26,128 bases of DNA from positions 1 through 26,128 of IMG/VR virus record IMGVR_UViG_3300031951_001065, one strand, 5' to 3'. Source of the stretch: a virus. Below, piece by piece: positions 5,964-26,128 of this stretch; the stretch's first letter is position 1, and each line of letters opens with the position of its first letter. A program made the position numbers and the translations under genes. The notes beneath the pieces are model-generated. The model saw nothing but the letters and a program-made list of their open reading frames with translations. It did no database searches and was not told the origin of the DNA.

Positions 5964-6229
5964 GTGAAGTAGTAGCAAGCGAGATTTGGGGCGAACTCAA
6001 ACGTTTTGTAAACACAGTGGATCGTGCAGAAGCTGCAGAAACTGTGGTTCAGATCTTGATGGACAATGATTCAGACGTAGAAGATATCCGTACAGCTTTC
6101 AAAGGCGATTCAGATATCAAACGTGCATTGACTGCATATCTTGACAACGACAAAGACTATGTTGAAGAAGAAGACGCAGAGGAAGATGAAGATTTTGACG
6201 ACTTTAATGAGGATGACTGGGAAGATTAA
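5960..6229 (+). CDS. Small acidic protein coupled to uvsX
   Basis: An 89-residue protein. The N-terminal half looks helical (WGELKRFVNTVDRAEAAETV). The last 25 residues are almost entirely Asp and Glu (EEEDAEEDEDFDDFNEDDWED). The extreme acidity and the ATGA overlap with uvsX suggest a partner of the recombination module or a DNA mimic, but no known domain is visible. The stop overlaps the next start (TAATG), so uvsX, this gene and the radical SAM gene form one coupled unit. I recall similar proteins beside uvsX in other T4-like phages of aquatic bacteria, without being able to confirm it here. Confidence 0.8.
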   Translation: MSEVVASEIWGELKRFVNTVDRAEAAETVVQILMDNDSDVEDIRTAFKGDSDIKRALTAYLDNDKDYVEEEDAEEDEDFDDFNEDDWED

Positions 6230-7473
6230 TGTCCAAGACATACTTTCCAATTCGTACTGCAACAAGTTGTCAATTAAAATGGAATTGGACTGCTCTGTAT
6301 CTCAATGGCGGATTTTCTCGAACGTGTCATCGCACCGCTGAAACACCTCTGACTCCGGAAAATTTTAATAATTTTCATAATACTGAAGTTGTGTTAGATG
6401 ATCGTACAAGAATGTTGCAAGGGTTGTGGCCCGAAACTAGTTGTTTGTATTGTAGAAATATTGAAGAGTCTGGCGGAGTAAGTGATCGGCTACGTCAAAT
6501 TAACGCACCAGATTTATCGCCGCCAGAGCTTGTTGATGATGCTTCTGCAATTCAAGTTAGTCCTACAATACTAGAAGTATTTTTTAACAACACTTGCAAT
6601 CTAGGATGTTTGTATTGTACTCCAGTATTAAGTTCGGTAATAAACGCAGAGAATCAAAAATTTGGTAGTTTTGAAAAAAACAATGTATCGTTAATATCAA
6701 TTGACACACATTACAAAGACTTGTCGCCAAATTTTTGGTCTTGGTTTCCTACAGGATTTGTCAAACTCAAACGATTTGGAGTGTTAGGCGGTGAGCCGTT
6801 CTATCAAAAGGAGTTTGAAAAACTGCTAGATATGATAGAACAGCATCCTAACCCCAATTGCGAACTCAACATCATTACCAATCTCATGGTGTCAACGGAT
6901 AGATTAAACATGTTTGTTGACAGACTCAAGCAATTGTTATTGACAAAAAAATTAAAAAGAGTGGACATTACCTGCAGTATAGATTGTTGGGGACCACAAC
7001 AAGAATATGTAAGGTGGGGGCTTGATCTTGCTCAGTGGCAGAGCAACTTTGAAACACTAATCATGAACAAATGGCTCTACATCAGTATCAATCAGACTAT
7101 CACTGCTCTCACCATCAAGACCATGCCTGAGTTGTTGATCAAATTAAAAAAGTGGAATACTATACGACCAGTGCATCATCACTTTAGTGGACCCGCACCA
7201 GGGCCAAGCTATTTCAATGCTGGTATATTAGGTGGCAATCAATTCAAACAAGACTTTGATCAAATATTGTCACTGATGCCACAAAGCACAGATGAGGACA
7301 AAATAACATATGACTATATGTTGGGCATAGCAAACAACATTATTGCCTCAGATATTGACCCACAAGAAATCTCTAAACTATTAACGTATCTTGATGAAAA
7401 AGATCGCAGGCGCAACACCAATTGGGAAGTGTTATTTCCTTGGCTAACTGAGTATAAAAAATATGTGGTATAG
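6229..7473 (+). CDS. Radical SAM protein, phage twitch-type
   Basis: A 414-residue radical SAM protein. The cluster motif CxxxCxxC is at C123, C127 and C130 (CNLGCLYC), preceded by the strand ILEVFFNNT. The SAM-binding GGEP motif is at 187-190. Further strands (NIITNLM, DITCSIDCWG, SINQTITALT) fit the partial barrel. Extra cysteines upstream (C14, C33, and C72/C75 in CLYC) could bind a second iron-sulfur cluster. Such proteins use a 5'-deoxyadenosyl radical to modify peptides, RNA or small molecules; the substrate is unknown. Its place between uvsX and uvsY, with overlaps of 1 base upstream and 11 bases downstream, is notable because recombination genes are not otherwise tied to radical chemistry. 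Confidence 0.88.
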   Translation: MSKTYFPIRTATSCQLKWNWTALYLNGGFSRTCHRTAETPLTPENFNNFHNTEVVLDDRTRMLQGLWPETSCLYCRNIEESGGVSDRLRQINAPDLSPPELVDDASAIQVSPTILEVFFNNTCNLGCLYCTPVLSSVINAENQKFGSFEKNNVSLISIDTHYKDLSPNFWSWFPTGFVKLKRFGVLGGEPFYQKEFEKLLDMIEQHPNPNCELNIITNLMVSTDRLNMFVDRLKQLLLTKKLKRVDITCSIDCWGPQQEYVRWGLDLAQWQSNFETLIMNKWLYISINQTITALTIKTMPELLIKLKKWNTIRPVHHHFSGPAPGPSYFNAGILGGNQFKQDFDQILSLMPQSTDEDKITYDYMLGIANNIIASDIDPQEISKLLTYLDEKDRRRNTNWEVLFPWLTEYKKYVV

Positions 7474-7915
7474 TAAAGTTACAGCAGACCTTGGTCTTCT
7501 TCCAGATTTTGTTGCATACTACGAACACGAACTGGATGCAGCCAAAAAAGACTGTCGCATTGGTGGTATAGTAGAAAAAAACATTACTGCACTACCAGGA
7601 ATCACAGAACATCGTTTCAATCAACTGCAAGAAATTGAGGCAGTGCTTAACTTTCTCAACATACAATTACGCAAGATTCGACGCCGACATTTTCAAAAGT
7701 ATCTCGAAGGATATGCAAGAGCGTTAACTAGTAGAGATGCTGAAAAATATGTAGACGGTGAGGACGAAGTTATTGATATGGAAACTCTCATTAATGAAGT
7801 TGCATTGCTTCGCAATAGGTGGCTGGGTATTATGAAAGGCCTGGATACCAAACAGTGGCAAATGGGTCATGTGGTCAGGCTAAGAACTGCAGGCATGGAA
7901 GACATACAGGTGTAA
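7463..7915 (+). CDS. uvsY: UvsY-like recombination mediator
   Basis: A 150-residue mainly helical protein. Its size, charge pattern and C-terminal half (LRNRWLGIMKGLDTKQWQMG, then a helix ending near the C-terminus) resemble T4 UvsY, the mediator that loads UvsX onto gp32-coated ssDNA. The basic stretch RKIRRRHFQKYLEGYARAL matches the DNA-binding helical region. Downstream position in the uvsX unit supports the call. The start at 7463 overlaps the radical SAM gene by 11 bases. The family match is from pattern memory and weaker than that for UvsX. Confidence 0.65.
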   Translation: MWYSKVTADLGLLPDFVAYYEHELDAAKKDCRIGGIVEKNITALPGITEHRFNQLQEIEAVLNFLNIQLRKIRRRHFQKYLEGYARALTSRDAEKYVDGEDEVIDMETLINEVALLRNRWLGIMKGLDTKQWQMGHVVRLRTAGMEDIQV

Positions 7916-7918
7916 ATA
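7913..7918 (+). promoter_or_regulatory. T4-late-like TAAATA box overlapping the uvsY stop
   Basis: The TAA stop of the uvsY-like gene forms the first half of TAAATA. Five bases then lead to ATG 7924. This gives leaderless spacing for the first gene of the glycan island; no Shine-Dalgarno sequence is visible before that ATG. Confidence 0.45.
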
Positions 7919-7923
7919 TCTGT

Positions 7924-8679
7924 ATGAAAATTGTACTTGTAACTGGCGGCTTTGACCCCATCCACTCTGGACACCTTGCCTACTTTCAGGCAGCAAAACA
8001 ACTAGGAGATAAACTTATAGTTGGTCTCAACTCAGACGAATGGCTTACTCGTAAAAAAGGCAAGCCATTCATGCCCATGAGCGAAAGATTTGCATTGGTC
8101 AGTGCATTGAAGATTGTAGACGAAGTTGTTGTTTACAATGACAATGACGGGTCAAGTTGTGATGCTATCCAACTGTTAAAAACACATTATCCCAAAGATC
8201 AAATTGTGTTTGCCAACGGGGGTGATCGCACCAAGGACAATATTCCTGAAATGGTCATTGACGATGTGGAGTTTGTGTTTGGTGTTGGCGGCGAAAACAA
8301 AATGAATTCCAGTTCGTGGATACTGGAAGACTGGAAAAAACCCCGGACCACTCGTGCCTGGGGATTCTATCGTGTGTTACACGAAGTAGGTCCTAATACC
8401 AAACTCAAAGAACTCACAGTCGCCCCCAAGACCTGCTTGAGCATGCAACGACACGATCATCGTGCTGAGTTTTGGTTTGTAGCCGAAGGCAAAGCCGCTG
8501 TGTACACCCTAGACAATTCTAGTGATCACGATCTCGTTGGTCATTTTGGAGTACATGAGCATATCTGGATCAAACAGAATCAGTGGCACATGTTGTGTAA
8601 CGAAACAGACCAGCCGCTTAAACTGATTGAAATTCAGTTTGGCGAGAACTGTGTGGAAGAAGACATCGAACGCCGATGA
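7924..8679 (+). CDS. Cytidylyltransferase-cupin fusion protein
   Basis: A 251-residue two-domain protein. Residues 1-130 are a nucleotidyltransferase of the cytidylyltransferase type: VTGGFDPIHSGH has the HxGH motif (14-17), followed by VGLNSDEW and RFALVSALKIVDEVV, as in HldE/RfaE C-terminal and glycerol-3-phosphate cytidylyltransferases. Residues about 145-240 are a cupin like the C-terminal domain of ManC-type mannose-6-phosphate isomerases. It begins WGFYRVLHEVG, with metal-ligand candidates H177, H179, E182 (QRHDHRAEF) and H222. The fusion would link activation of a sugar or alditol phosphate with isomerisation or binding of the sugar. ATG 7924 was chosen because the HxGH domain begins there; the frame upstream to 7819 lies inside uvsY. 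Confidence 0.88.
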   Translation: MKIVLVTGGFDPIHSGHLAYFQAAKQLGDKLIVGLNSDEWLTRKKGKPFMPMSERFALVSALKIVDEVVVYNDNDGSSCDAIQLLKTHYPKDQIVFANGGDRTKDNIPEMVIDDVEFVFGVGGENKMNSSSWILEDWKKPRTTRAWGFYRVLHEVGPNTKLKELTVAPKTCLSMQRHDHRAEFWFVAEGKAAVYTLDNSSDHDLVGHFGVHEHIWIKQNQWHMLCNETDQPLKLIEIQFGENCVEEDIERR

Positions 8680-9359
8680 AAGCCATACCAGTTTATGTTG
8701 GGTACGACCCAAGAGAAGCTATTGCTTTTCACACCTGTGCCAACTCAATCATACGGCATGCATCAAAGCCAGTGGCTATTATTCCTGTGGCCTTAAACTT
8801 GTTTCGAGACTACGAAGAAACACACACAGATGGCAGCAATCATTTTATCTACACACGTTTTCTAGTACCACACCTGCAAGAATACACAGGCTGGGCCATT
8901 TTCATTGATGGCGATATGATTGTGCGTGATGATATCGTGAAGTTATGGGAACTGCAGAATCCGTATAACGATGTCATGGTGGTCAAACATGACTACAAAA
9001 CCCGGATGCCTGTAAAATACCTAGGATCAAAAAATGAAGACTATCCTCGAAAAAATTGGAGTAGTGTTATTCTGTGGAATTGTAATTCTTTTCCTAACAG
9101 GCAACTTACTCCCCAGTTCGTCCAACACGCCACGGGCAGTGAGCTCCACCGCTTCTCGTGGTTAGAAGATTCTCGCATTGGAGAGCTACCACCAGAATGG
9201 AATTGGTTGCCTGATGAATATGGCGTTAATAAGGATGCCAAGTTACTGCATTATACTCTGGGCACACCTTGTTTCCAGGAGTTTGCCGACACACCACAAG
9301 GTGATGAATGGCACAGAGAGCGTATTCTAACTGAATACTGCTTGCAAAGGAACATATGA
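8676..9359 (+). CDS. GT-A glycosyltransferase, DxD type
   Basis: A 227-residue protein resembling small GT8-like transferases. It has an N-terminal VYVGYDPREAIAFHTCANSI motif, common in phage and bacterial members of this group, and a metal and nucleotide-sugar-binding DGD at 78-80 (AIFIDGDMIV). A later HYTLGTPCFQEF segment is in the place where GT8 enzymes have a third metal-binding histidine. It overlaps the stop of the fusion gene by 4 bases (ATGA) and the next gene by 4 bases, so the three are translated as one unit. The acceptor is unknown. Confidence 0.85.
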   Translation: MKAIPVYVGYDPREAIAFHTCANSIIRHASKPVAIIPVALNLFRDYEETHTDGSNHFIYTRFLVPHLQEYTGWAIFIDGDMIVRDDIVKLWELQNPYNDVMVVKHDYKTRMPVKYLGSKNEDYPRKNWSSVILWNCNSFPNRQLTPQFVQHATGSELHRFSWLEDSRIGELPPEWNWLPDEYGVNKDAKLLHYTLGTPCFQEFADTPQGDEWHRERILTEYCLQRNI

Positions 9360-10402
9360 CATTACCACTGGCAGTTGTTGAACGCTGTCCTATGGAGGAA
9401 TACAAACTCCAGCACAACAATTTGGTTGATGCACTCAAGCACATTAATCGAGATGCGGTGGCCTTGTATCACGAACTACAAGATCTAAGAACTCAATTTC
9501 GTAAAACCGCCGACAAAGACGATAAACGTTTTGATAAGAATCTTGACGTAGTGATACGAGACAAAGAAGAACGACTGTTTAGACTGATCAAGTTCAACGA
9601 TTATCCTGCCATGGTCATGGCATCATATCCTGATGCAAAATTTATCAATAGCTACGATTATAAACGTGCTCGAAAAACCATCACAGATGATATCATAATA
9701 CGTGGCATCTCATCGGGCGATTATGCTAAACATGCATTAGAGACCAATCGTAATTTTTACTTTATCGAAACTGGATACCTAGGTAACTATCGTTGTGAAA
9801 ACAACATGACAGGTAGAAAAATATATCACCGAATAGAAAAAAATTCCATGCAACAGAGTCGGATCATGGATGTGCCCGATGATCGGTGGCGTGACCTGTG
9901 TGCGTTTAATCCCAAGTTACGTTATCAAGGATGGAAAAAACCAGGCAGTAAAATATTGCTGATCATGAGCACCGAAAAACCATTTGAATACTATGGTACT
10001 ACCAAGAATGAATGGGTCAATTCAACTATTGATACTTTACGTCAACACTCTGATAGAGAGATTGTGATACGTGAGAAAGCCAGCCGTGGTGAGCGTACCA
10101 ACGATACTATCTATGATGCATTAGACGAGGATATCTACGCTGTAGTAACCTACAACAGTATAGCTGCCGTTGAAGCAATTCAATATGGTATTCCTGCACT
10201 CTGTACAGCACCCACTGCGGCCAGTGCAGTGACCACTGCTGATTTCGCACAAATTGAAAACCCACCTAAGCTGAGCGAAGATATTATCTACAAATGGCTA
10301 TCTAGTGTGGCTTATGGACAGTTTAGTTTAGATGAAATTTTAACAGGTCGTGCCTGGAGTTTGGTACAAGAGAATGATGCACGGTCAACCTTTAGTTATT
10401 AA
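9356..10402 (+). CDS. Putative GT-B-like transferase, paralogue A
   Basis: A 348-residue protein. The N-terminal ~65 residues look coiled coil (LYHELQDLRTQFRKTADK). The C-terminal half has the sugar-nucleotide-type motif AVVTYNSIAAVEAIQYGIPA, then DFAQIENPP and a final FSLDEILTGRAW. This pattern is like the C-terminal half of KpsS/capsule and CDP-glycerol transferase-type GT-B proteins. The genes at 10374 and 13312 share it: a C/YNS motif, a helix, G(V/I)PA or GVRP, then ADxxxxExP and a terminal F/L-xELxxGxxW. I call all three members of one family. Polysaccharide or teichoic-like transfer is inferred. Confidence 0.7.
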   Translation: MTLPLAVVERCPMEEYKLQHNNLVDALKHINRDAVALYHELQDLRTQFRKTADKDDKRFDKNLDVVIRDKEERLFRLIKFNDYPAMVMASYPDAKFINSYDYKRARKTITDDIIIRGISSGDYAKHALETNRNFYFIETGYLGNYRCENNMTGRKIYHRIEKNSMQQSRIMDVPDDRWRDLCAFNPKLRYQGWKKPGSKILLIMSTEKPFEYYGTTKNEWVNSTIDTLRQHSDREIVIREKASRGERTNDTIYDALDEDIYAVVTYNSIAAVEAIQYGIPALCTAPTAASAVTTADFAQIENPPKLSEDIIYKWLSSVAYGQFSLDEILTGRAWSLVQENDARSTFSY

Positions 10403-11324
10403 AAGTTATCTAGGTAGCTTGCCCAAGCATATCAACGGCGAAGAAAAGATCAATGCCTTAACGTTCTTTGCCGAAGGTGCTGCTAAGTGTGGTGACCACG
10501 CTGTGACAACACAATCTCAAACCTACGAAACATGCGATGTTGGAGCAATCATCGGCAATGCATTTGATGCCAACCCGGGCAAAGTAAATCTTCCGCACTA
10601 CAAGGTGCGTAAGATGGTCATGGAAACGCAGGCATCTCGCAATCGTTATTGGCTCAGCATCGACAGCAATGTGTTTATTTACAAGGACAAGCTGAATCCA
10701 CATCGTTATCTACGGTATAGTTTCAATGGTGTGTTTCCTGCTACAGGAATTTATTGTAACAATACTCCTGGTATTGAAAATTGGAATAACATTCGTAGAC
10801 ATTACAACATGGACTTGAAGCCTTGGCGATCAACGGGAAGTCATATCTTGATCACGTTACAACGTCCCATGGGGTGGAGCATGCGTGGACAGAATCTAAT
10901 GGCCTGGCTTGAGAATACGTTCGCTAACATACGTCGTTACTCAGACAGACCCATTATAATTAGATGGCATCCTGGTGATTGGAAAAACTACCCCAAATAT
11001 GATGCTGTGCTTAAGAAGTATCGTGTAACTATCAGTCCACAAGAACGACACATCACACAGGATCTTGTGAATTGTTGGGCGTTGGTGTGTCACAATTCAA
11101 CACCCAGTGCAGTGGCACCTATTGAAGGTGTTCCTGCGTTTATCACAGATGACCCTAGATACAGTCAAGGCGGAGACATTGCCAACACAGACTTTAGTAG
11201 ATTGGAAAATCCACTCTTGCCTGATCGGGAGCAGTGGATTATGAAGCTAGCCCAGTGTCACTGGAGTTTTGAAGACCTGCGTTCAGGACGTTGCTGGGCT
11301 CACATGAGACAATGGGTTGTTTAG
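10374..11324 (+). CDS. Putative GT-B-like transferase, paralogue B
   Basis: A 316-residue relative of the preceding gene, overlapping it by 29 bases. The conserved parts are ILITLQRPMGWSMRG, PIIIRWHPGDW (a basic and His motif also found as VRPHPR in paralogue C), ALVCHNSTPSAVAPIEGVPA, DFSRLENPLL and WSFEDLRSGRCWA. ATG 10374 is followed by another in-frame ATG at 10377; a GTG at 10350 would add 8 residues but lacks support. Its 3' end overlaps a reverse-strand methyltransferase by 86 bases. The acceptor is unknown. Confidence 0.72.
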   Translation: MMHGQPLVIKSYLGSLPKHINGEEKINALTFFAEGAAKCGDHAVTTQSQTYETCDVGAIIGNAFDANPGKVNLPHYKVRKMVMETQASRNRYWLSIDSNVFIYKDKLNPHRYLRYSFNGVFPATGIYCNNTPGIENWNNIRRHYNMDLKPWRSTGSHILITLQRPMGWSMRGQNLMAWLENTFANIRRYSDRPIIIRWHPGDWKNYPKYDAVLKKYRVTISPQERHITQDLVNCWALVCHNSTPSAVAPIEGVPAFITDDPRYSQGGDIANTDFSRLENPLLPDREQWIMKLAQCHWSFEDLRSGRCWAHMRQWVV

Positions 11325-11913
11325 AAAATACCATTCGTTGTTTTTTAGTACCCCAGCGTCTAAGTGCCTTGCAATGAACAAAACCAAAATCTTCAAGCAT
11401 TGAGGTATTTTGATATTTTATTCGAGTGTCAATTATTATTGTACTAACAGTGCCACTATTGTTTTCAAGAAACAGCTGATACTGTTCTAGTGGATAATGG
11501 AATCCCCATGAATTCAAACTGATTAATGTATCACATTCAATTATCAACGCAGGATCAGCTGGCAGGAACTCTACACTAACATTGTTAGATTTAAAAAAAT
11601 CTTGCGCCACTTGATTGTCTGAATAAAATGCAATGTTGTCTCGGTAACCATAATGTTCTCCATCGACCACCCCATTGCCATCTAGTAATGTGATAGATAT
11701 GTTTGGATTATAGATCTTGATTAAGTAGTCGATACCTCCAACCCCTGCGCCAACATCAACAATGTGTACTGAGTTAACAATGTAATTTTTAATATCTTTG
11801 TAATCTTGATTAACGTCTTGAATGTACGCATTAAATATTTCTTCGTTGGTTGTGCCAGCAATGTAAGGTCTTTGCAATTTAAGCAAGTGAATGTATTGTT
11901 CAGTTAAATTCAT
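11239..11913 (-). CDS. SAM-dependent methyltransferase
   Basis: A 224-residue protein with a class I methyltransferase motif I, VHIVDVGAGVGG (about residues 49-60), and an acidic loop after the next strand (ITLLDGNG). The later DTLISLNSWGFHY fits motif IV of a small-molecule or sugar methyltransferase. The last ~30 residues lie beyond the expected core and are encoded in the 86-base overlap with paralogue B on the other strand. Its start overlaps the FkbM gene upstream by 14 bases, so both are read from the same reverse-strand message. O-methylation of a glycan is a reasonable guess from context. Confidence 0.75.
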   Translation of the reverse strand: MNLTEQYIHLLKLQRPYIAGTTNEEIFNAYIQDVNQDYKDIKNYIVNSVHIVDVGAGVGGIDYLIKIYNPNISITLLDGNGVVDGEHYGYRDNIAFYSDNQVAQDFFKSNNVSVEFLPADPALIIECDTLISLNSWGFHYPLEQYQLFLENNSGTVSTIIIDTRIKYQNTSMLEDFGFVHCKALRRWGTKKQRMVFSKQPIVSCEPSNVLNAGLQNSSDTGLAS

Positions 11914-12517
11914 GTTTATAAATGTAATCGTGTTTTATACTATTAACAAGTTGGTATCCCCAACTCAATAATAATGTGTGTGCTTCTGCTCGTGATTCTT
12001 GTTCAACAACCAATACAGGATATGATTTCTTGATATAGTTTTCGCCGCCTTGTAATACGTACAGTTCAAATCCTTCTACATCAATCTTAACAAAATCTGC
12101 TGGTGGCAAATCTAGATCATCGAGACGTTGTACCAGTACTTCAAAATCACCGTTTGAGTTCACACGAGTCTTGCCGTAGTTGTCTGGAAATCGTTGCATC
12201 ATCACTGTACCAGTTTCTGTACCCAATGCAGTCTGGAATATTTGAGTAGCTGGAGCATTCAGTTTCAAATAGTCGCAATGTAATTGCACAGGCTCTACCG
12301 CAAAATTACGTGCAAACTTTTGTTCTAGTGTATGACTCCACAGACCAAAATTAGCACCAATATCTACACTAACACCAAAGGTAGAAACATATCCTAATGC
12401 CAATCTACGTACAGGACCTTGATATTCTGCAGGCTCCCCTACTTTGGCATTGCGTTCAATAAACTTGCTAAAGTGTGATTCGTCGTCTGGCAACCAGTAG
12501 TTATGAAACTGTTTCAT
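11900..12517 (-). CDS. FkbM-family methyltransferase
   Basis: A 205-residue protein with family-specific signatures: SVDIGANFGLWSHTL (motif I), AVEPVQLHCDYLKLN, the glycine and Thr-rich ALGTETGTV, DFVKIDVEGFELYVLQGG and PVLVVEQES. FkbM-type enzymes methylate hydroxyl groups of sugars and other natural products and often sit in surface-polysaccharide clusters, which fits here. The start ATG at 12517 overlaps the stop of the glycosyltransferase gene by 4 bases (ATGA), so it is translationally coupled to it. Confidence 0.9.
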   Translation of the reverse strand: MKQFHNYWLPDDESHFSKFIERNAKVGEPAEYQGPVRRLALGYVSTFGVSVDIGANFGLWSHTLEQKFARNFAVEPVQLHCDYLKLNAPATQIFQTALGTETGTVMMQRFPDNYGKTRVNSNGDFEVLVQRLDDLDLPPADFVKIDVEGFELYVLQGGENYIKKSYPVLVVEQESRAEAHTLLLSWGYQLVNSIKHDYIYKHEFN

Positions 12518-13299
12518 TGATATTTTGCCTGTTCACGCTTGAAAATTTCAAGTTCTTTGCGTTTGCCCTTGGCTGACCATATGGCACTTTCAGGGCGCAT
12601 AGCCCAGTCAATATAGCTCATGGGCAACAGACCTTTTTTGTACTGCGGCACAATGGCATCCAGTATGAATTGATCCAAAAACCAGTACAGGTCATCTTGT
12701 GTGATACTGGTACGCAATTGTTGAGCATATTGTTGCAAGAAATCATTGCTACGACCTGTGCCTGTAAACAACATGGCACCTGCAAGGTGAGTACCGTCCT
12801 TGGGTTTTTCGTAAAGGTAAAAGTCCTGTTGCCCTAGTTGTGAATTAAAAGGGCCGCGTATCAGGCCATCAACATCGATTGCCAGGCATTGACTACCACG
12901 TGGCAATATTTCTGCCAACCTTACAAATCTTGCGCAGGCATAATATGTTTGTTGAACCAACTTGCGTAGTTCATATACTCCGTTGGTTTGTCCTTTTTTG
13001 TACATTTGCCTCTGTCGATCATTGGCAAACTCTCTGCGGCTTGCCCAATATTGAGTGATACGATCAAACTCTACAGAGTCGGTGTACTCATAGGTACAAC
13101 TCACCCCTGGGCGATTGCAAAATTCAATTTGATCTGGTCGCGGATCGTATATGTGGATGTGGCATCCGTATTCGGGAGTGTTTTTCAAAATGCTATTGAT
13201 TAGTGGTCGAGCATGCACATCAAAATACACAGTGTCTGCGGCTGCAAAAATAAAAAAACGATCTTGGGTTAACTTTCCGTTGAGTTGGGGGAATAACAT
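12514..13299 (-). CDS. GT-A glycosyltransferase-like protein, DxD type
   Basis: A 261-residue protein with a GT-A-like layout. It has an N-terminal strand and helix (FFIFAAADTVYFDVHARPLINS), a CLAIDVDGLIRGPF segment with DVD at 142-144 as the likely Mn2+ and nucleotide-sugar site, and a hydrophobic HLAGAMLFTGT segment typical of the acceptor side. The last stretch (MSYIDWAMRPESAIWSAKGKRK) is reminiscent of other phage transferases. It is the first gene of a reverse-strand three-gene unit (glycosyltransferase, FkbM, methyltransferase). It is divergent from the gene at 13312, with only 12 bases between the start codons. Confidence 0.75.
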   Translation of the reverse strand: MLFPQLNGKLTQDRFFIFAAADTVYFDVHARPLINSILKNTPEYGCHIHIYDPRPDQIEFCNRPGVSCTYEYTDSVEFDRITQYWASRREFANDRQRQMYKKGQTNGVYELRKLVQQTYYACARFVRLAEILPRGSQCLAIDVDGLIRGPFNSQLGQQDFYLYEKPKDGTHLAGAMLFTGTGRSNDFLQQYAQQLRTSITQDDLYWFLDQFILDAIVPQYKKGLLPMSYIDWAMRPESAIWSAKGKRKELEIFKREQAKYQ

Positions 13300-13301
13300 A
13301 G

Positions 13302-13311
13302 TAAATATTTA
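13302..13311. promoter_or_regulatory. Palindromic bidirectional TAAATA late-type box
   Basis: The 10-base palindrome TAAATATTTA fills the space between two divergent genes and provides a TAAATA box in each direction. The box for the reverse gene (13311-13306) is six bases from ATG 13299; the forward one (13302-13307) is four bases from GTG 13312. Both would yield leaderless transcripts. Confidence 0.45.
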
Positions 13312-14148
13312 GTGATCAGAAACATAGCCTATTATCCTTTGCACCGTGCTCTTAATGCTCAAGCACCAATGACTGCTATGTTGTCAGCACTGACTCAAGC
13401 CGGAATAACACCGCATGCTAACAGCATGGATTCTGATGCTGTGCTGATCTGGTCAGTGCTATGGTCTGGACGTATGGCAGCTAATCAAGCAGTGTACGAG
13501 CATTATAGATCCCTGGGACGCCCTGTCATTGTAGCTGACATAGGTGCTCTGCAACGTGGCACAACATGGAAGGTTGCAGTGAACAACATCAATGCACAGG
13601 GCTACTATGGACATTTGGATCGTTTGGATTGGGATCGTCCTAAAAAACTAGGCTTGAGTTTGAAAACTCCTGCAAAACCGAAACCACACATAGTCATTGC
13701 GTCCCAACATGCCAAAAGCGAGCAAACAGCCGGAGTAGATTTGAATCAATGGGTAAGAGAACAAATTCAATGCTTGAAGAATGTCACTGACAGACCCATA
13801 CATGTGCGACCCCATCCAAGATGTCGTTTAGACGTTGCAGGACTAGGAGTCACAGTTGAACGCCCTGCAAAGATACCTGGCACCTATGACAGCTTTGATT
13901 TGGCACTGGATTGCCATGCTATTGTAAACTACAACTCTGGACCAGGTATACAAGCCGCCATAGCAGGAGTGCGACCTGTAGTTGACATGTCCAGTTTGGC
14001 CTATCCTGTAAGCGTTGGATTTGCTGACATAGAACAGCCGTACGTTACCAACAGAGATTTATGGCTTGCACAAATCAGTTACACAGAATACACACTAAAT
14101 GAACTGGAACAAGGCCTATGGCTAAACAGAATACACTCAGCCTTGTAG
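13312..14148 (+). CDS. Putative GT-B-like transferase, paralogue C
   Basis: A 278-residue third member of the family at 9356 and 10374. It shares PIHVRPHPR, AIVNYNSGPGIQAAIAGVRP, FADIEQP and YTLNELEQGLWL. It begins at GTG 13312, and the next residues (IRNIAYYPLHRALN) look like a genuine N-terminus. An in-frame ATG at 13369 would remove that strand, so GTG is preferred. The gene is shorter than paralogue A because it lacks the coiled-coil N-terminus. It overlaps the next gene by 31 bases. Confidence 0.72.
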   Translation: MIRNIAYYPLHRALNAQAPMTAMLSALTQAGITPHANSMDSDAVLIWSVLWSGRMAANQAVYEHYRSLGRPVIVADIGALQRGTTWKVAVNNINAQGYYGHLDRLDWDRPKKLGLSLKTPAKPKPHIVIASQHAKSEQTAGVDLNQWVREQIQCLKNVTDRPIHVRPHPRCRLDVAGLGVTVERPAKIPGTYDSFDLALDCHAIVNYNSGPGIQAAIAGVRPVVDMSSLAYPVSVGFADIEQPYVTNRDLWLAQISYTEYTLNELEQGLWLNRIHSAL

Positions 14149-14849
14149 ATTGTGCGTGTGTGATACACGGCACTGGATATGATTGGATCTACGTAGAACG
14201 ACTGTATAATATGCTAAGTCGTAATCTTCCCAACGGCATAAGGTTCCATGTGTACACCGAACATGACAGACCAGTGCCAGATCACATGATCAAACATGTG
14301 TTGACCAACTGGCCTGAAATATCTGGACCCAAACGATCATGGTGGTACAAACTACAACTGTTTAACTCTGAACATCATCAAGGCAACTTGTTGTATTTTG
14401 ATCTTGACACTGTGATACTTCGTGACATCTCCTGGATCACACAACTGCCCACAGAATATCTCTGGGGTGTCAAAGATTTTAAGCACCTACAACGTCCAGG
14501 TTACTCAACATTAAACAGCAGTGTGATGTGGTGGAACGTTGAAAAGATGTCTTGGATATGGGATCAGTTTAACACCACCAATGTGGACACCACTTCAAGG
14601 CAGTACCCAGGCGATCAAGACTACATAAACGCCGTGCTTGGTCACAACAGAATTAGATATTTTGAAGACAGTCAAATGCAAAGTTGGCGTTGGCAATGTC
14701 TAGATGGTGGCTACAACTTTAACACTAGACGCCACAAAATTCCTGGTCAAGGCACACAAATTCCAGGTAGTACTTCAGTATTAGTTTTTCATGGCAAGCC
14801 AAAGCCACACGAAATTAACGACAAAGTAGTACAAGATCTTTGGCGCTAA
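14118..14849 (+). CDS. GT-A glycosyltransferase, DxD type
   Basis: A 243-residue transferase. The FHVYTEHDRPVP segment is followed by WWYKLQLFN and LLYFDLDTVIL with DLD at 95-97, the usual metal-binding motif; LNSSVMWWNVEKM and YPGDQDYINAVL fit the acceptor and catalytic parts. The C-terminal VLVFHGKPKPHEI contains a histidine in the position typical of GT8-like enzymes. It is the last gene of the glycan island and overlaps paralogue C by 31 bases. Five bases after its stop comes the first of the repeated sigma70 promoters. Confidence 0.88.
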   Translation: MAKQNTLSLVDCACVIHGTGYDWIYVERLYNMLSRNLPNGIRFHVYTEHDRPVPDHMIKHVLTNWPEISGPKRSWWYKLQLFNSEHHQGNLLYFDLDTVILRDISWITQLPTEYLWGVKDFKHLQRPGYSTLNSSVMWWNVEKMSWIWDQFNTTNVDTTSRQYPGDQDYINAVLGHNRIRYFEDSQMQSWRWQCLDGGYNFNTRRHKIPGQGTQIPGSTSVLVFHGKPKPHEINDKVVQDLWR

Positions 14850-17232: not shown

Positions 17233-18693
17233 ATGAAACAATGCACAATACAAATACGTGATGAGGTCAATATCAAGCTAGAGGGTCTTGACCTAGATGT
17301 GCGTAAGAAACTGGTCAGTACTTTTAAGTACGAGAATCCGGCAGCAAGGTATTTGCCTGCTGTGAGACTGGGACGGTGGGATGGTAAGATTGCCTACTTC
17401 CAACTTGGTGGTAGCACTTATACCAATCTGTTGCCAGAGATTATTCCTATCTTGGAACAGTACAACTACGACATTGAACTAGATGACCAACGTGAATACT
17501 CAACCACATTTGAGTTTGCTGAGATGCGAGAGGATACGTTTGCTGACACAATGTGGCCCAAAGGACATCCACAAGAAGGAGAACCCATTGTGTTGCGAGA
17601 CTACCAAGTAGAGATCATCAACAACTATCTGCAGAACCCGCAGTGCATACAAGAAGTGGCCACAGGCGCAGGCAAGACTATCATGACAGCGGCCTTGAGT
17701 TGGAACGTACAACCCTATGGTAGGTCAATTGTTATTGTGCCCAACAAGAGCTTGGTAACACAAACAGAAAAGGACTATGTTAACTTGGGCCTGGATGTGG
17801 GTGTGTACTTTGGTGATCGTAAAGACTACGGCAAGACACATACCATTTGCACTTGGCAAAGTCTAAACAACTTGCTCAAAGACTCCAAAGACGGCACAGC
17901 AAAATTCACTATACAGGACTTCATGGAAAATGTGGTATGTGTTATTGTAGACGAAGTACACATGGCCAAAGCAGACGCACTCAAAACTCTGCTGACAGGC
18001 ATCATGGCTAGAGTGCCAATTCGGTGGGGATTGACAGGAACAATACCCAAAGAGAAGTTTGAAAGTCAAGCCTTGTTGGTTGGACTAGGTCCTGTTGTTA
18101 GTAAACTGTCAGCAAGTGAACTACAAGATCGAGGTGTGCTAGCACAGTGCCACGTTAATATTGTGCAGTTGGTAGATCACGTGGAGTATTCCAACTATCA
18201 AAGCGAGCTTAAATACTTGCTTGAGGAATCGGGTAGATTGGATACCATGGCGGACCTTGTGCGCCGTGTAAACGAAACAGGCAACACACTTGTGTTAGTA
18301 GACAGAACAGAATGCGGTAGACAACTAGTAGAACGACTAGGTGATGGTGCTGTGTTTGTGTCCGGAGCAACAAAAGCAAAAGCGAGACAAGACGAATATG
18401 ATGAAGTGGCTGACGCAACAGGTAAAATCATTGTGGCAACTTATGGTGTGGCTGCTGTTGGTATTAACATTCCCCGTATTTTTAATCTGGTACTCATTGA
18501 GCCTGGTAAGAGCTTTGTTAGAGTTATTCAGTCGATTGGTCGTGGCATACGTAAAGCGGAAGATAAAGACCATGTTCAGATCTGGGACATAACATCAACC
18601 TGCAAGTTTGCCAAACGACATTTAACCAAGCGCAAACAGTTTTACAAAGAAGCCAACTATCCTTTTTCAGCAGAGAAATTAGAATGGAAATAA
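17233..18693 (+). CDS. uvsW: UvsW DNA/RNA-DNA helicase
   Basis: A 486-residue superfamily 2 helicase of the UvsW type, which unwinds R-loops and branched recombination intermediates and helps switch from origin- to recombination-dependent replication in T4-like phages. The N-terminal ~110 residues match the UvsW substrate-binding part (RLGRWDGKIAYFQLGG). Then follow the Q-motif-like LRDYQ (121-125), Walker A ATGAGKT (143-149), DEVH (240-243), LTGT (267-270) and the motif VI QSIGRGIR (433-440). All helicase motifs are intact. The only start with sense is ATG 17233, which is also the predicted transcription start. Its 3' end overlaps the next gene by 10 bases. Confidence 0.93.
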   Translation: MKQCTIQIRDEVNIKLEGLDLDVRKKLVSTFKYENPAARYLPAVRLGRWDGKIAYFQLGGSTYTNLLPEIIPILEQYNYDIELDDQREYSTTFEFAEMREDTFADTMWPKGHPQEGEPIVLRDYQVEIINNYLQNPQCIQEVATGAGKTIMTAALSWNVQPYGRSIVIVPNKSLVTQTEKDYVNLGLDVGVYFGDRKDYGKTHTICTWQSLNNLLKDSKDGTAKFTIQDFMENVVCVIVDEVHMAKADALKTLLTGIMARVPIRWGLTGTIPKEKFESQALLVGLGPVVSKLSASELQDRGVLAQCHVNIVQLVDHVEYSNYQSELKYLLEESGRLDTMADLVRRVNETGNTLVLVDRTECGRQLVERLGDGAVFVSGATKAKARQDEYDEVADATGKIIVATYGVAAVGINIPRIFNLVLIEPGKSFVRVIQSIGRGIRKAEDKDHVQIWDITSTCKFAKRHLTKRKQFYKEANYPFSAEKLEWK

Positions 18694-21003: not shown

Positions 21004-21456
21004 ATGACTGATAAACTAAGCATTGCTAACGAGATGAAAATGTTTGACCACAAGGTCAGAGACTTCTATGACGAGTTGTCAGAAGACGAGCGCAAGAAGT
21101 TTGCTCCATTCCTTATGATACGATGGGGATCGGCAGTAGAAGGTTCGAGAGATCTACAGGAGTTCTATGTTATTTCTACAAATGAACGTTTAAACAAAAA
21201 CTTCTTTAACATTAACTCAACTCGACATCGTAAACTGCAATGGCTCATGGCCACAACTGTGAGTCCAGGACTGGGCTCAATGAGACACAACTGGATTGCT
21301 CCCAAGAAAAAAGAAGCAGGTGTTGGTAGCATAAAAAAACAATTGGCAGAGCTGTTTCCGCACTACAAGTCAGACGAGATAGACGTCATGGCAGCAATAA
21401 CAACCAAAAAAGAACTTGATCAATACATTAGAGCACATGGCCGAGACAACAAGTAA
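21004..21456 (+). CDS. 62: gp62-like clamp-loader small subunit (putative)
   Basis: A 150-residue protein matching the pattern of short gp62 proteins from T4-like phages of aquatic bacteria: KFAPFLMIRW, then TNERLNKN, a HRKLQWLMATTV helix, HNWIAPKKK, and a C-terminal SDEIDVMAAITTKKELDQYI helix pair. In T4, gp62 works with the gp44 ATPase to load the gp45 clamp. No gp44 is seen in this window. The match is by motif memory and is moderate. It has a dedicated promoter with no leader. It overlaps the zinc-finger gene by 20 bases. Confidence 0.6.
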   Translation: MTDKLSIANEMKMFDHKVRDFYDELSEDERKKFAPFLMIRWGSAVEGSRDLQEFYVISTNERLNKNFFNINSTRHRKLQWLMATTVSPGLGSMRHNWIAPKKKEAGVGSIKKQLAELFPHYKSDEIDVMAAITTKKELDQYIRAHGRDNK

Positions 21457-22126
21457 GTTTACATGTGAGTTTTGCAAGAAAGAGTTTGCACGTGAAAGCT
21501 CTATTGCAGTACACATGTGCGAGCCCAAGCGCAGGCGCATGGAACAAAGTGAGCGTGGTGTACAATTGGGATTCCAGGCCTACATCAAGTTTTATGAAAT
21601 GGCACAAGGTAGTGCCAAACTCAAAACATTTGAGGACTTTTGTGACAGTCCTTATTATCGAGCCTTTGTAAAGTTTGGTCGTTATTGTGTAAACACACGA
21701 GCTATTAACCCTGCACAGTTTATGACCTGGTTGCTTAAGAACAACAAGAAAATTGACCATTGGTGCAGTGACAAAATCTACACAGAGTACTTGTTGTTCT
21801 ATTTGAAGGTAGAAGCTGTAGCAGATGCCTTGGCCCGTGCAGTAGAGTACAGCATTGACTGGCATGAGAAGACCGCGCATCCAGCACACGACTGTTTAAG
21901 ATATGGCAATACCAATGCGTTATGTCATGCTGTAACAACAGGACGCATCAGTCCCTGGGTAATCTACAACTCAGCGTCAGGCCAAGAGTTCTTGAACACA
22001 CTAGATACCTCACAGATCACAATGATATGGCCATACATTGATTCAGATGCATGGCAAAAGAAATTTCATGACTACTCAGCAGACCAAGAGTATGCCAAGG
22101 AAATTTTAAAACAAGCAGGATGGTAA
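21437..22126 (+). CDS. C2HC zinc-finger phage protein
   Basis: A 229-residue protein. The N-terminus is a single zinc finger, FTCEFCKKEFARESSIAVHM with ligands C10, C13, H26 and C28, followed by a basic patch (KRRRM). The rest is a conserved-looking helical domain (FQAYIKFYEMAQG, FEDFCDSPYYRAFVKFGRYC, DHWCSDKIYTEYLL). I recall this combination in T4-like phages but know no function; DNA or RNA binding is likely. ATG 21437 fits the start of the finger and lies in the end of the gp62-like gene. The final codons (ILKQAGW) are followed one base later by the next start. Confidence 0.82.
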   Translation: MAETTSKFTCEFCKKEFARESSIAVHMCEPKRRRMEQSERGVQLGFQAYIKFYEMAQGSAKLKTFEDFCDSPYYRAFVKFGRYCVNTRAINPAQFMTWLLKNNKKIDHWCSDKIYTEYLLFYLKVEAVADALARAVEYSIDWHEKTAHPAHDCLRYGNTNALCHAVTTGRISPWVIYNSASGQEFLNTLDTSQITMIWPYIDSDAWQKKFHDYSADQEYAKEILKQAGW

Positions 22127-22127
22127 C

Positions 22128-23029
22128 ATGATTCAGATTGACTTTCAAGGTGGGGCACACGGCAACTATCTTGAATTTGTCTGCAATACCATGTGCGGAG
22201 TAACAGAAGGCATTCCCTTTAACTCAGCAGGCGCCTCGCACTTAAAAAAAGTACACTAGCAGAAAAGTTTTCTATGCCGATCACTATTCGTATCAGGGCA
22301 AGGATCTAGGAGAAAAAGTTGTTAGTATTCAAATAACCAAAAATGACTTGCTGCCGTTATTGCAGATCAGTTTGTTGCGAGCTGGTGATTATGGTTATGA
22401 TAACAACAACCTCGAAGTTGACACTTACAACAAACTCAACAATTCAGATTATCGGTGGGCACTGGATAAACTTATTGATGGATTTTTCAAAGATCAAGTA
22501 CAACAAAGTTATAATAATGTACGAGATCCGGCGTGGCCTGACATCAAAACAATCAACGACTATAATGCGTTGCCTGTACACATTCAACATGAATGCAACA
22601 CTATACACAAATTAGAACTACTTGAACTATCTGAAAACTATCCCAACTGCCCAAGATCAGTACTGAGAGAATTTTTTTCAAATAGGGTTTGAACATCCAG
22701 GCCAACAGGGATTTATGCATCGCCAAAACACCATGGTTAATTATGGCACACGATCGGTGTGTGTATTTCCTTTTGAGTGTTTCTACAACATTGATCAGTT
22801 TGTGCATCAACTCAAACGCATTGCATCTTGGGCAGGAATACAGTATAATCAACATGATAGGATTGTGGAAATGCATGAAGAGTTTTTAAAACGGCAACCA
22901 TATGCACATAGTAAAACTAGATGTGATGCTATGGTGCAAAACATAATACAAAATCAACCAGCCGATGATGTTAGAGATTTACTAGAAGAAGCGTATGTAA
23001 ACGCACAATTAAAAAAAGTACGGACATGA
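22128..23029 (+). pseudogene. Phage protein of unknown function interrupted by two +1 frameshifts
   Basis: One gene of 299 codons is split over three frames. Part 1 begins at ATG 22128 (MIQIDFQGGAHGNYLEFVCN) and hits a stop shortly after a run of seven A (22244-22250). Removing one A joins it to frame 2 with KKYTSRKVFYADHYSYQG and then DLLPLLQISLLRAGD. A second run, seven T (22672-22678), needs one T removed to continue as FFQIGFEHPGQQGFMHRQN and VCVFPFECFYN up to 23029. The repaired protein is continuous and plausible over its whole length. Similar proteins occur in T4-like phages; function unknown. Either the gene is dead, the shifts are bypassed, or the two homopolymers are sequencing errors. 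Confidence 0.82.
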
Positions 23030-23592
23030 GTGCAGATATTGACATTGACTTTGCTGACAGAGATCTTGTGCTGAAGTTGATTCGGCACACTCCGGCACGG
23101 CAAGTGACACAAGGTCAAGTACGCCGACACAACTCAGGTGTGTATGTTACAGACATTCCACATGATCCCATAAATGGGTGTGCAGCCATAGACTATGAAC
23201 AAGCAGAACAACGTGGCTACTTCAAACTAGACTTCTTGAATATGAGTGTTTATCAGCTAGTTAAAAGTCCTGAACACTATCAAGAGATGTTGGCAGCCAC
23301 ACCTCCTTGGAATAGACTTTGGCAAGATACCAATTGGTCCAAGCAGTTGGTTCACGTGGGAAATTACACAGACTTGTTGAAGAACATGCGCCCATCAACT
23401 ATACCACAGATGGCAGCGTTTATCAGTATCATTAGACCAGGCAAAGCTCACTTGCAGAATCAGCTCTGGGCGGATGTGTTTGCTACAGTATGGGACGGCG
23501 ACGACTCACAAGGATACACGTTTAAAAAGTCACATGCTGTAAGTTATGCAGCCTTGGTTGCATTGCATATGAATTTAATTGACAATCATTGA
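23026..23592 (+). CDS. Miniature DnaE-like (PolIII alpha palm) protein
   Basis: A 188-residue protein with, in order, the landmark motifs of bacterial DNA polymerase III alpha. DIDIDF (D4, D6, D8) fits the palm motif holding the first two catalytic aspartates. HNSGVYV (35-41) fits the HxxGVVI motif. GYFKLDFLNM with D69 fits the GLVKFDFLGL motif holding the third catalytic aspartate. IPQMAAFISIIRPG (126-139) fits the LAxxxALYRPGP motif, and YTFKKSHAVSYAAL (164-177) fits FNKSHAAAYAL. The PHP, most of the fingers, and the beta-binding and OB parts are absent; a normal alpha subunit is over 1000 residues. A polymerase, regulator or clamp-binding mimic role is inference. It overlaps the broken gene by 4 bases and the reverse-strand gene by 18. 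Confidence 0.75.
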   Translation: MSADIDIDFADRDLVLKLIRHTPARQVTQGQVRRHNSGVYVTDIPHDPINGCAAIDYEQAEQRGYFKLDFLNMSVYQLVKSPEHYQEMLAATPPWNRLWQDTNWSKQLVHVGNYTDLLKNMRPSTIPQMAAFISIIRPGKAHLQNQLWADVFATVWDGDDSQGYTFKKSHAVSYAALVALHMNLIDNH

Positions 23593-24372
23593 CCGATGCC
23601 AGTGTGTTCCAAATGCATCAACAGACTCAGGTGCATTGATAAATGGAAGCATGGCATTCCAATAGTCATGTGCTCTTTTTTGTGCTGTAGTTCCTAGCAT
23701 CTTGCATAGATAATGGCTACCACCTGGTTTGAAAAGTTCTGCATAGTCAAGGTCAATTGGCAGTAGAGGTGCCAACTTTTTATAAAACATCAAGTAATTT
23801 AATTGATTGTTATCCGGTAATTGTTGATCAGTTATTGCCATGTCAATTTTATTGTTGATATAATCAATAGCGTAGTTGTTGGTTACAAATTCTGAAGTAT
23901 CGAATAGATTCCCAACAAATCTAATTTTATGTTGTCGAAAGTGGTTGTTGTATTCCATGCCAATACACAGATGTACTTTGACCAATCGATCCCAATGATA
24001 TTGTATCATGTCTGCACGGCTCAAATCAATCCCGGCTATTGTTAAGATTCCTGAATCAACTAAGTTGGCTAATCTGTTTATGTTGCTATCACTAGTACTA
24101 ACATCGTTGTCAATGTGGCACGATATTGCTAACGTACAATTAACAGTTGGATCGATGATCAAATCACCACAATCGATACTATCAAGTAATAAAGTGACTG
24201 ACCATTGAGCAGTATTAATCCTACTGTACCCTACTAATGGATCAATGATCCAAGGAGTTCTTACACTCCCGTTGCACAGGCCAAGCCAACCACAAACAAA
24301 GTCTTTTCTTGCTCCTGCACTACCAACAGTTATTATAATTTTAGAAACTCTTAAATTATCACACGGATTCAT
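23575..24372 (-). CDS. Phage protein of unknown function with P-loop-like N-terminus
   Basis: A 265-residue protein. The N-terminus has a hydrophobic strand followed by a glycine-containing loop (KIIITVGSAGARKDFVCGWL) that resembles a P-loop, though without a canonical GxxxxGK[ST]. The rest is rich in Asp, Asn and Ile (LLLDSIDCGDLIIDPTVNC, INNKIDMAITDQQ). I recall SAGARKDF-type proteins in phages, possibly kinase- or sulfotransferase-like, but cannot place the family. It follows a smaller gene on the same strand by one base, and its 3' end overlaps the mini-DnaE gene. Confidence 0.75.
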   Translation of the reverse strand: MNPCDNLRVSKIIITVGSAGARKDFVCGWLGLCNGSVRTPWIIDPLVGYSRINTAQWSVTLLLDSIDCGDLIIDPTVNCTLAISCHIDNDVSTSDSNINRLANLVDSGILTIAGIDLSRADMIQYHWDRLVKVHLCIGMEYNNHFRQHKIRFVGNLFDTSEFVTNNYAIDYINNKIDMAITDQQLPDNNQLNYLMFYKKLAPLLPIDLDYAELFKPGGSHYLCKMLGTTAQKRAHDYWNAMLPFINAPESVDAFGTHWHRSMIVN

Positions 24373-24373
24373 G

Positions 24374-24751
24374 TTAATCTAATTTTCTGACCAATGTTAT
24401 GCTCTTTCTTTTGATTTTTTTGCGAGCAATGTCCAGCAGGCTACATGCAGGCCCGTGTATGATTTCTAGATCTTTGTTGACAAATGTTCGTAAAGTGTAG
24501 CGGAATTTGTCCCAATCTCCGCGCAAGAATATGTTTATGGGCACACTACGATTGCTTTCCCACCACCAGGTGGTAGCTAGCTCTAAAAACTGTAGTTTAT
24601 CCTCTTGTGCAAGTACACTACCAAAGTCGTAGATAGTTGTAACAGCATCGTCTCTGTTTTGTACAACCCCAACATACTCGGTGTTGGCATAAACGCAAAG
24701 CGTAACAAACGGATACTTTTCCGTGAGTTTTTCAAAAATATTGTTACCCAT
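24374..24751 (-). CDS. Conserved-looking small phage protein (125 aa)
   Basis: A 125-residue protein with a helical start (NIFEKLTEKYPFVTLCVYAN), an acidic middle and the very recognisable WWWESNRSVPINIFLRGDW segment, then HGPACSLLDIARKKIKRKSI with a basic C-terminus. I recall close relatives in T4-like phages of cyanobacteria and other aquatic hosts; function unknown. It is divergent from the virion gene at 24772, only 20 bases away, and the late-type box lies over its start codon. Confidence 0.82.
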   Translation of the reverse strand: MGNNIFEKLTEKYPFVTLCVYANTEYVGVVQNRDDAVTTIYDFGSVLAQEDKLQFLELATTWWWESNRSVPINIFLRGDWDKFRYTLRTFVNKDLEIIHGPACSLLDIARKKIKRKSITLVRKLD

Positions 24752-24771: not shown

Positions 24772-25842
24772 ATGTATTCAACCACTGCTTACTTATATCA
24801 GCAAATTACCAGAGTATTATTGATTGACACCAGTGGTGGCTATTTCACAGCGAGGTACGACCCAGTGTACGCAAAACAATTAACCGTTAACAAAGGTGTA
24901 GATAATGTTCTACTCTTTGAATTTATCAACCAAGATCAAAAGCCTGTAAACGTTACAGGCAGCACATTTGTGTTCCGCATGATCAGCCAAAATGGCGATG
25001 AATTACTGCTCAGCAAAGAGATGGAAATACTCAGTGCCGCAACTGGCAGAGTCAAAGTAGTGCTGACAGGCGAGGACACTATTGATTTAATAGCACAGCC
25101 TGCCAGCTACAGTATTCAGCGTACATCAGGCAACTATGTGCAAGCTGTGTACACAGATGCTAACTCACAAGCACGAGCAGACTGCAACATCGTAGACTCA
25201 GTGTTGCCGCAGTTTCAAGACAGCGCCAACTTGACCATACCCACAATTTACGGCCCTATGAGTTGGCCACAGAATCCGCCTAGTGGTTGGCCTGATTGGG
25301 CATTGAATCCGCAACCTATTAACTATACTCAAACTACAGAATTCTACTCCAGCCAGATTCCTACTGTGGGTGCTAGCTTGACCACAGTCAAAATGGATCT
25401 AACACATTTTACTGGCACAATCAAAGCACAAGGCGCACAGGATTATGAAGCACCTTGGTATGATGTAACCACATCTACTTCGTATCTAAATGCCACAGAA
25501 ACCATTTATCTCAACATTGTGGGATTCCATCCGTTAATCCGTGTGGCATTTAATCAAAGTCAAGGCTGGGGCGCCACTGCCACTGCCACGGTGGTTGATG
25601 GTGTGGTCACAGGAATCACTGTGAACAATCCTGGATACTATTATGTTGCTCCTCCAAATGTGTTGATTGTGGGCAACGGTGCAGGAGCCAAGGCCACAGC
25701 CACTCTGGGTGCTGATGGCGGATGCGGACCAATCACAGTGACCGATGGCGGTTCAGGTTACTTGCCAATTACATTTGGTAATCCTGTGTATGCCAATGTT
25801 GTCATAAACAACGGCACTGTTACCAATTTGATGTATCGCTGA
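24772..25842 (+). CDS. Putative virion protein with BppU-like N-terminus and C-terminal GSGY repeats
   Basis: A 356-residue protein. Residues about 28-125 (ARYDPVYAKQLTVNKGVDNV, PVNVTGSTFVFRMISQNGDE, TGRVKVVLTGEDTIDL) resemble the N-terminal domain of baseplate upper proteins that anchor tail fibres. The centre is Pro/Tyr/Trp-rich. The C-terminus contains two degenerate beta-repeats of the type [A-rich]-V..G.V..I.V...G.GY..-P..V.I.G, ending NPGYYYVAPP and GGSGYLPITF; this repeat is common in phage fibre and baseplate proteins. Late promoter plus Shine-Dalgarno fit a structural gene. Which virion part it belongs to is not determined. Confidence 0.75.
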   Translation: MYSTTAYLYQQITRVLLIDTSGGYFTARYDPVYAKQLTVNKGVDNVLLFEFINQDQKPVNVTGSTFVFRMISQNGDELLLSKEMEILSAATGRVKVVLTGEDTIDLIAQPASYSIQRTSGNYVQAVYTDANSQARADCNIVDSVLPQFQDSANLTIPTIYGPMSWPQNPPSGWPDWALNPQPINYTQTTEFYSSQIPTVGASLTTVKMDLTHFTGTIKAQGAQDYEAPWYDVTTSTSYLNATETIYLNIVGFHPLIRVAFNQSQGWGATATATVVDGVVTGITVNNPGYYYVAPPNVLIVGNGAGAKATATLGADGGCGPITVTDGGSGYLPITFGNPVYANVVINNGTVTNLMYR

Positions 25843-25877: not shown

Positions 25878-26128
25878 ATGCTAGACATTGTCTCCTACTT
25901 ACCCGGCAAACGCAAACACACTCCATCTGGATGGATCAGCTTCAATGCGGTGTGTTGCCATTACAATGTTGGCAGTGTTGACAAACGCAGCCGTGGTGGA
26001 CTCAAGGCCTCTGAACAGGGCTGGAGTTATCACTGCTTCAACTGTGGATACACCGCCAGCTTTATCCTTGGCCGCTCAGTGAGCTACAAGGCCCGTAGGC
26101 TCTTGAACTGGTTTGGTGTACCCGATGC
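25878..26128 (+). CDS. 61: DNA primase gp61, 5' part
   Basis: The first 83 codons of a gene that runs off the window. The start ATG 25878 is followed by WISFNAVCCHYN (C26, C27, H28) and WSYHCFNCGYTASF (C53, C56), the zinc-ribbon layout of the N-terminal domain of T4 gp61-type primases. These make short RNA primers together with the gp41 helicase. The spacing with SRGGLKASEQGW between the Cys pairs is as in phage primases. There is no stop codon before the window end. Its promoter abuts the stop of the virion gene. Confidence 0.85.
   Translation, partial: MLDIVSYLPGKRKHTPSGWISFNAVCCHYNVGSVDKRSRGGLKASEQGWSYHCFNCGYTASFILGRSVSYKARRLLNWFGVPD

Follow-up and report, generated by a model that had tools for sequence, protein, structure and literature searches.

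A stand-alone C-terminal half of a predicted split DNA polymerase III alpha in the replication block of an uncultured T4-like phage

Group 2.2 jumbo phages are predicted to encode, besides a family B polymerase, a minimal DNA polymerase III (Pol III) alpha subunit that is split over two distant genes, with an NTP-binding N-terminal half and a Mg2+- and template-binding C-terminal half (Iyer et al., 2021; PMC7824862). The same article suggests synthesis of one strand or repair as the task of the split enzyme. Earlier genome papers had recorded a truncated alpha in phages CBB (172 aa) and Atu_ph07 (gp316), both of which are, by their coordinates, the N-terminal half (hereafter N-half, and C-half for its counterpart). 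Subsequent experimental work on the split polymerase was not found in the literature searched, which left out the majority of subscription journals and preprints. A reduced enzyme has also been described in family X, in which a minimal viral polymerase consists of NT fold and fingers only (PMC11646218). Compared by description only, it resembles the phage protein studied here in being a viral NT-fold polymerase reduced to palm and fingers, whereas the phage enzyme belongs to family C and is split, and the family X enzyme is one polypeptide. The full-length DnaE of phages (PHROG 405), to which similarity is detectable for both halves, differs in being a long single protein with a profile of 1190 positions.

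The window analysed here is a 26,128-nt stretch of DNA from an uncultured phage (IMG/VR record IMGVR_UViG_3300031951_001065), and it encodes a 188-aa protein (Table 1) that matches the phage family PHROG 11778, labelled "DNA polymerase", with an E-value of 2e-54 (residues 3–187 on profile positions 7–193 of 197). The likeness to the group 2.2 system (PMC7824862) is close: a stand-alone C-terminal half, a distant gene for the N-terminal half and a family B polymerase, the latter two known here from relatives. There is no difference in kind; the present C-half comes from a fragment of an uncultured phage. The initial annotation had read the 188-aa product as a mini-DnaE that keeps all three catalytic aspartate motifs. 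The product is indeed a relative of the palm and fingers of Pol III alpha with intact catalytic aspartates, and all five motifs quoted in that annotation were found in the ATG-initiated ORF, running in the same order as in DNA polymerase III alpha. In addition to the residue pairs given in Table 1, motif alignment with E. coli DnaE equates D8 with D405, H35 with H511, G38 with G514, and L71 with L557, and K758 of DnaE is also among the aligned residues. The active site of family C enzymes also includes a GRGS motif; this is absent from the C-half and sits on a second protein.

Table 1. Features in and around the C-half gene (positions in the 26,128-nt window).
Feature	Position	Strand	Remarks
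UvsW helicase	17233..18693	+	upstream neighbour of the C-half in 124/132 related loci with room
C2H2-like protein (PHROG 11058)	21416..22126	+	upstream neighbour of the C-half in 130/132 related loci
C-terminal half of split minimal DNA polymerase III alpha (PHROG 11778; predicted)	23026..23592	+	188 aa; catalytic D4, D6, D69
First palm motif ADIDIDF	23032..23052	+	D4, D6 = E. coli D401, D403; immediately past the break point
Second palm motif KLDFLNM	23224..23244	+	K67, D69 = E. coli K553, D555
Finger motif ISIIRPG	23422..23442	+	R137-P138 = E. coli R639-P640
Finger motif FKKSHAVSYAA	23521..23553	+	H170, Y174 = E. coli H760, Y764
PHROG 11637 protein	24374..24751	-	convergent downstream neighbour of the C-half in 118/120 related loci
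Protein in the slot annotated as virion structural protein in named relatives	24772..25842	+	
gp61-type DNA primase, start only, truncated by the window end	25878..26128	+	downstream neighbour in 116/120 related loci

Searches with the single sequence gave matches of insufficient strength for an identification and were set aside: the Pfam family DNA_pol3_finger matched the 188-aa protein at an E-value of 0.073, which does not reach the cut-off, and phmmer against the PDB gave an E-value of 1.6 with unrelated rows ranked higher. A PDB profile search with the C-half alignment placed Pol III alpha at the top, but with an E-value of only 0.028, while hhalign of the C-half family against E. coli DnaE gave 0.003–0.005, compared with 0.033 for the best of 20 shuffled DnaE sequences. 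An AlphaFold2 model built from 72 homologues has a pLDDT of 92.5 and a pTM of 0.83, and a Foldseek search with this model returned exclusively Pol III alpha or PolC structures in places 1–14. In VIA-align, the model was aligned with Taq alpha (3e0d) at Z 9.6 over 186 of its 188 residues; comparison with E. coli alpha (2hnh) gave Z 8.4 and an rmsd of 3.6 over 182/188 residues spanning positions 399–778, and the best unrelated structure reached Z 3.7. These Z values are moderate, yet the top rows stand apart and span the entire model. The predicted fold is that of Pol III alpha, and an unrelated fold, which would have contradicted the initial annotation, was not obtained. Glyoxalase/FosA-like and other folds were rejected, as they scored below Z 4 and covered residues 1–78 only, a small part of the C-half. 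The identity of the C-half is secured by the PHROG 11778 match together with the structure comparison.

In several named phages, the C-half is labelled hypothetical or "putative membrane protein", the latter in the GenBank records of GAP32, CBB, and several Erwinia phages (L086:7947-8597, L091:7950-8600). The membrane label is contradicted by the predicted globular Pol III fold.

Like DnaE and PolC, the family C enzymes of bacteria, the C-half combines a palm and finger fold with three catalytic aspartates and the RP and FxKSH motifs, and the GRGS motif also exists, but on its partner. In contrast to bacterial alpha subunits of more than 900 aa, the palm is incomplete in one chain and the active site is distributed over two polypeptides; the C-half starts at E. 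coli residue 399 and covers the region up to 778 with about half as many residues. The PHP, thumb, clamp-binding, OB, and tau-binding domains are absent, and processivity would need another source. The N-half (PHROG 11127, ~170 aa, bearing the GRGS motif) was modelled with a pLDDT of 86.9 and matches E. coli alpha 279–393 at Z 9.9, with a best Z of 12.2 and an unrelated Z of 2.2; for its first ~70 residues, the comparison reported no structural counterpart in alpha. The two models therefore tile the palm and fingers of E. coli alpha without overlap.

The N-half was looked for independently with Pfam PF07733. One copy was found in 14 of 15 phage records with a C-half, all but a 95-kb fragment, and the family B polymerase (PolB) is present in the same 14. 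All three genes occur together in 11/11 named jumbo phages and in the 141-kb circular Alishewanella phage Slicko01, giving 12/12 complete named phages searched. In a second set of 15 IMG/VR contigs, three of them shared with the first, the N-half and PolB were found in all, and the C-half in 11/11 contigs of at least 176 kb; the four contigs without it measure 111–159 kb. PolB was found in all complete or large relatives, in line with the statement of the initial annotation that T4-like phages use a polymerase of family B. The 26-kb window, a genome fragment, contains neither the N-half nor a detectable family B polymerase, and we infer the N-half partner of its C-half from the relatives for this reason. 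No fused halves, and no two halves together within 8 kb, were found at 172 C-half and 110 N-half loci (282 in total). In Slicko01, the C-half, a gp44-type clamp loader, and the primase/helicase lie in one block; no N-half lies within 6 kb of the C-half, and it is located ~11 kb away. The occurrence of both halves in this 141-kb phage indicates that the split system is not confined to jumbo phages.

The ends of the two halves agree closely across the family. Among the N-half ORFs, 94/110 terminate exactly after EFL[x], and a Met stands 1–6 residues ahead of DxDxD in 165/172 C-halves, which places the break at residues 393/401 in E. coli alpha. GRGS, which corresponds to E. coli 361–364, is invariant in 101/101 non-redundant N-halves. 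Together, the end positions indicate a break point common to the family that falls past the GS motif but ahead of the first catalytic strand and so divides the nucleotidyltransferase signature.

Among 154 non-redundant C-half homologues, 15 positions are completely invariant (D4, D6, D8, H35, G38, P45, K67, D69, L71, W95, R137, P138, K140, H170, and Y174), and 12 of the 15, including the catalytic aspartates, are identical in E. coli alpha; FKK is near-invariant. The alignment thus sustains the aspartate assignment of the initial annotation, with D4, D6, and D69 kept in 154/154. The lengths of the homologues are uniform, and the dN/dS is ~0.12 against the two closest relatives, values against more distant relatives being based on saturated dS. 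Full-length relatives were detected by tblastn in 63 phage records, mostly of 280–490 kb and of the RaK2, 121Q, GAP32, CBB, PA5oct, Atu_ph07, SCTP-2, and XacN1 kind, and at least 570 confirmed relatives were found in each of two scans of viral contigs. When genomes of bacteria and archaea were scanned, 11 contigs were returned (L299–L309), every one of them in metagenome-assembled genomes. They are interpreted as phage contigs that were placed in the bins of hosts, for example as Natrialbaceae or Pacearchaeota, and the bins that hold them are probably contaminated.

The gene order in the window, which ends within gp61, is the same as in related C-half loci, where the gp41 helicase follows downstream in 107/120 loci with room. 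The N-half has a fixed position of its own: in 74/74 loci with room, it is followed on its strand by a GroES-like gene and then by the clamp loader gene gp44, an order that also occurs in seven annotated phages. In these phages (L310–L316), the gene between the N-half and gp44 is named chaperonin, Co-chaperonin GroES, or head morphogenesis.

Several further features of the window were observed. The gene directly upstream of the C-half (22126–23029) is broken over several frames, with pieces at 22128, 22348–22692, and 22715–23029, the last of which shares the letters ATGA with the start of the C-half. A single intact ORF of ~300 aa occupies this place in the closest relative (L001), and the break represents either sequencing errors or a pseudogene. 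Between the C-half and the PHROG 11637 gene, a 265-aa ORF on the minus strand (23575–24372) overlaps the end of the C-half in a tail-to-tail arrangement; it had no family matches, and similar genes in only five related loci point to a variable insertion site. Farther upstream, a 414-aa ORF (6229–7473) carries the radical-SAM-like cysteine motif CNLGCLYC, and the region from UvsX to UvsW (7819–14849) holds, on both strands, ORFs whose translations, judged by eye, are sugar-nucleotide/glycosyltransferase- and methyltransferase-like.

Homology, predicted fold, residue conservation, co-occurrence, the common break point, and gene linkage all point to a two-subunit minimal family C polymerase whose halves would assemble and synthesise DNA, a reading to which we assign a probability of about 0.68, the assembly and the activity being what we infer. 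The C-half would bring all three Mg2+-binding aspartates and reduced fingers, the N-half, encoded near the gp44 clamp loader, would bring the initial palm segment that includes GRGS, and the two would associate into one active site. The complex would then polymerise DNA at the phage replication fork alongside the family B polymerase, probably for short stretches of synthesis, for instance in primer extension, on the lagging strand, or in gap filling, the specific task being a guess. The loss of the thumb and of the clamp-binding regions points to low processivity if accessory proteins of the phage do not assist. Several points count against the two-subunit reading: the absent alpha domains, the first ~70 residues of the N-half for which alpha has no reported counterpart, the distance between the two genes, which are never fused, the presence of a family B polymerase in these phages, and the lack of the N-half from the 26-kb window. 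The reading agrees with the independent prediction for the group 2.2 phages (PMC7824862).

The lack of the alpha thumb and DNA-holding domains, together with the separate family B polymerase of these phages, would also suit halves that form a Pol beta fold nucleotidyltransferase that is no longer template-directed, such as an enzyme for untemplated end modification or for signalling. This is unlikely, since the fingers have been kept besides the palm, with RP, H170, and Y174 invariant and FKK near-invariant, and the genes lie within replication blocks that also encode primase, helicase, and clamp loader.

Interference with host replication is common among phages, and the C-half resembles the host alpha, so that it could act as a dominant negative, a mimic that binds host Pol III partners or the primer-template. 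Such a role would not need invariant aspartates and a partner GRGS across very different hosts and would leave catalytic conservation on two genes unexplained; the domains through which alpha contacts host partners are absent, the locus is fixed in the phage replication block, and we consider an inhibitor of this type distinctly improbable.

The initial annotation had also proposed a complete minimal polymerase in the C-half alone, and one protein does hold all three catalytic aspartates in a confidently predicted stand-alone fold. The proposal did not hold up, as the GRGS triphosphate motif and the first palm part reside on the N-half, a separate protein that accompanies the C-half in every complete or large relative examined, and a self-sufficient C-half now seems very unlikely. 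Hardly more can be said for a phage replisome subunit with a structural, non-catalytic role and an ancestral fold, which would account for the strict synteny with replisome genes, whereas the metal-binding residues rank among the most conserved positions. Decay of an acquired dnaE, to which the loss of most of alpha might point, can practically be dismissed, as the initial annotation had argued, given the invariant motifs, uniform length, dN/dS of ~0.12 against the two closest relatives, and at least 570 homologues in one viral collection.

Compared with the two-subunit enzyme already predicted in print (PMC7824862), the C-half of the window is a new intact member. Relative to the accessible part of that article, the new elements are the exact common break point, the fixed place of the C-half beside UvsW, the gp61 primase, and the gp41 helicase, the constant position of the N-half ahead of the clamp loader gene gp44 (74/74), and the presence of both halves in a 141-kb non-jumbo phage. 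The published prediction gains strength from the gene linkages, the break point, and the non-jumbo phage. With the N-half tied to the clamp loader and the C-half to the primase-helicase, the polymerase may form only where these meet at the fork. That a large T4-like lineage, not only jumbo phages, has a second replicative-type polymerase with an active site split in this way, formed only at such a meeting point, is a tentative and rather doubtful proposal.

The C-half protein has been widely overlooked in phage annotation. If the two halves assemble, they would constitute an extremely small family C polymerase, a replicative-type enzyme with an active site shared by two gene products that exists beside a family B enzyme. 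It would then provide a test of how little Pol III alpha catalysis requires and of why large phages retain two unrelated polymerases.
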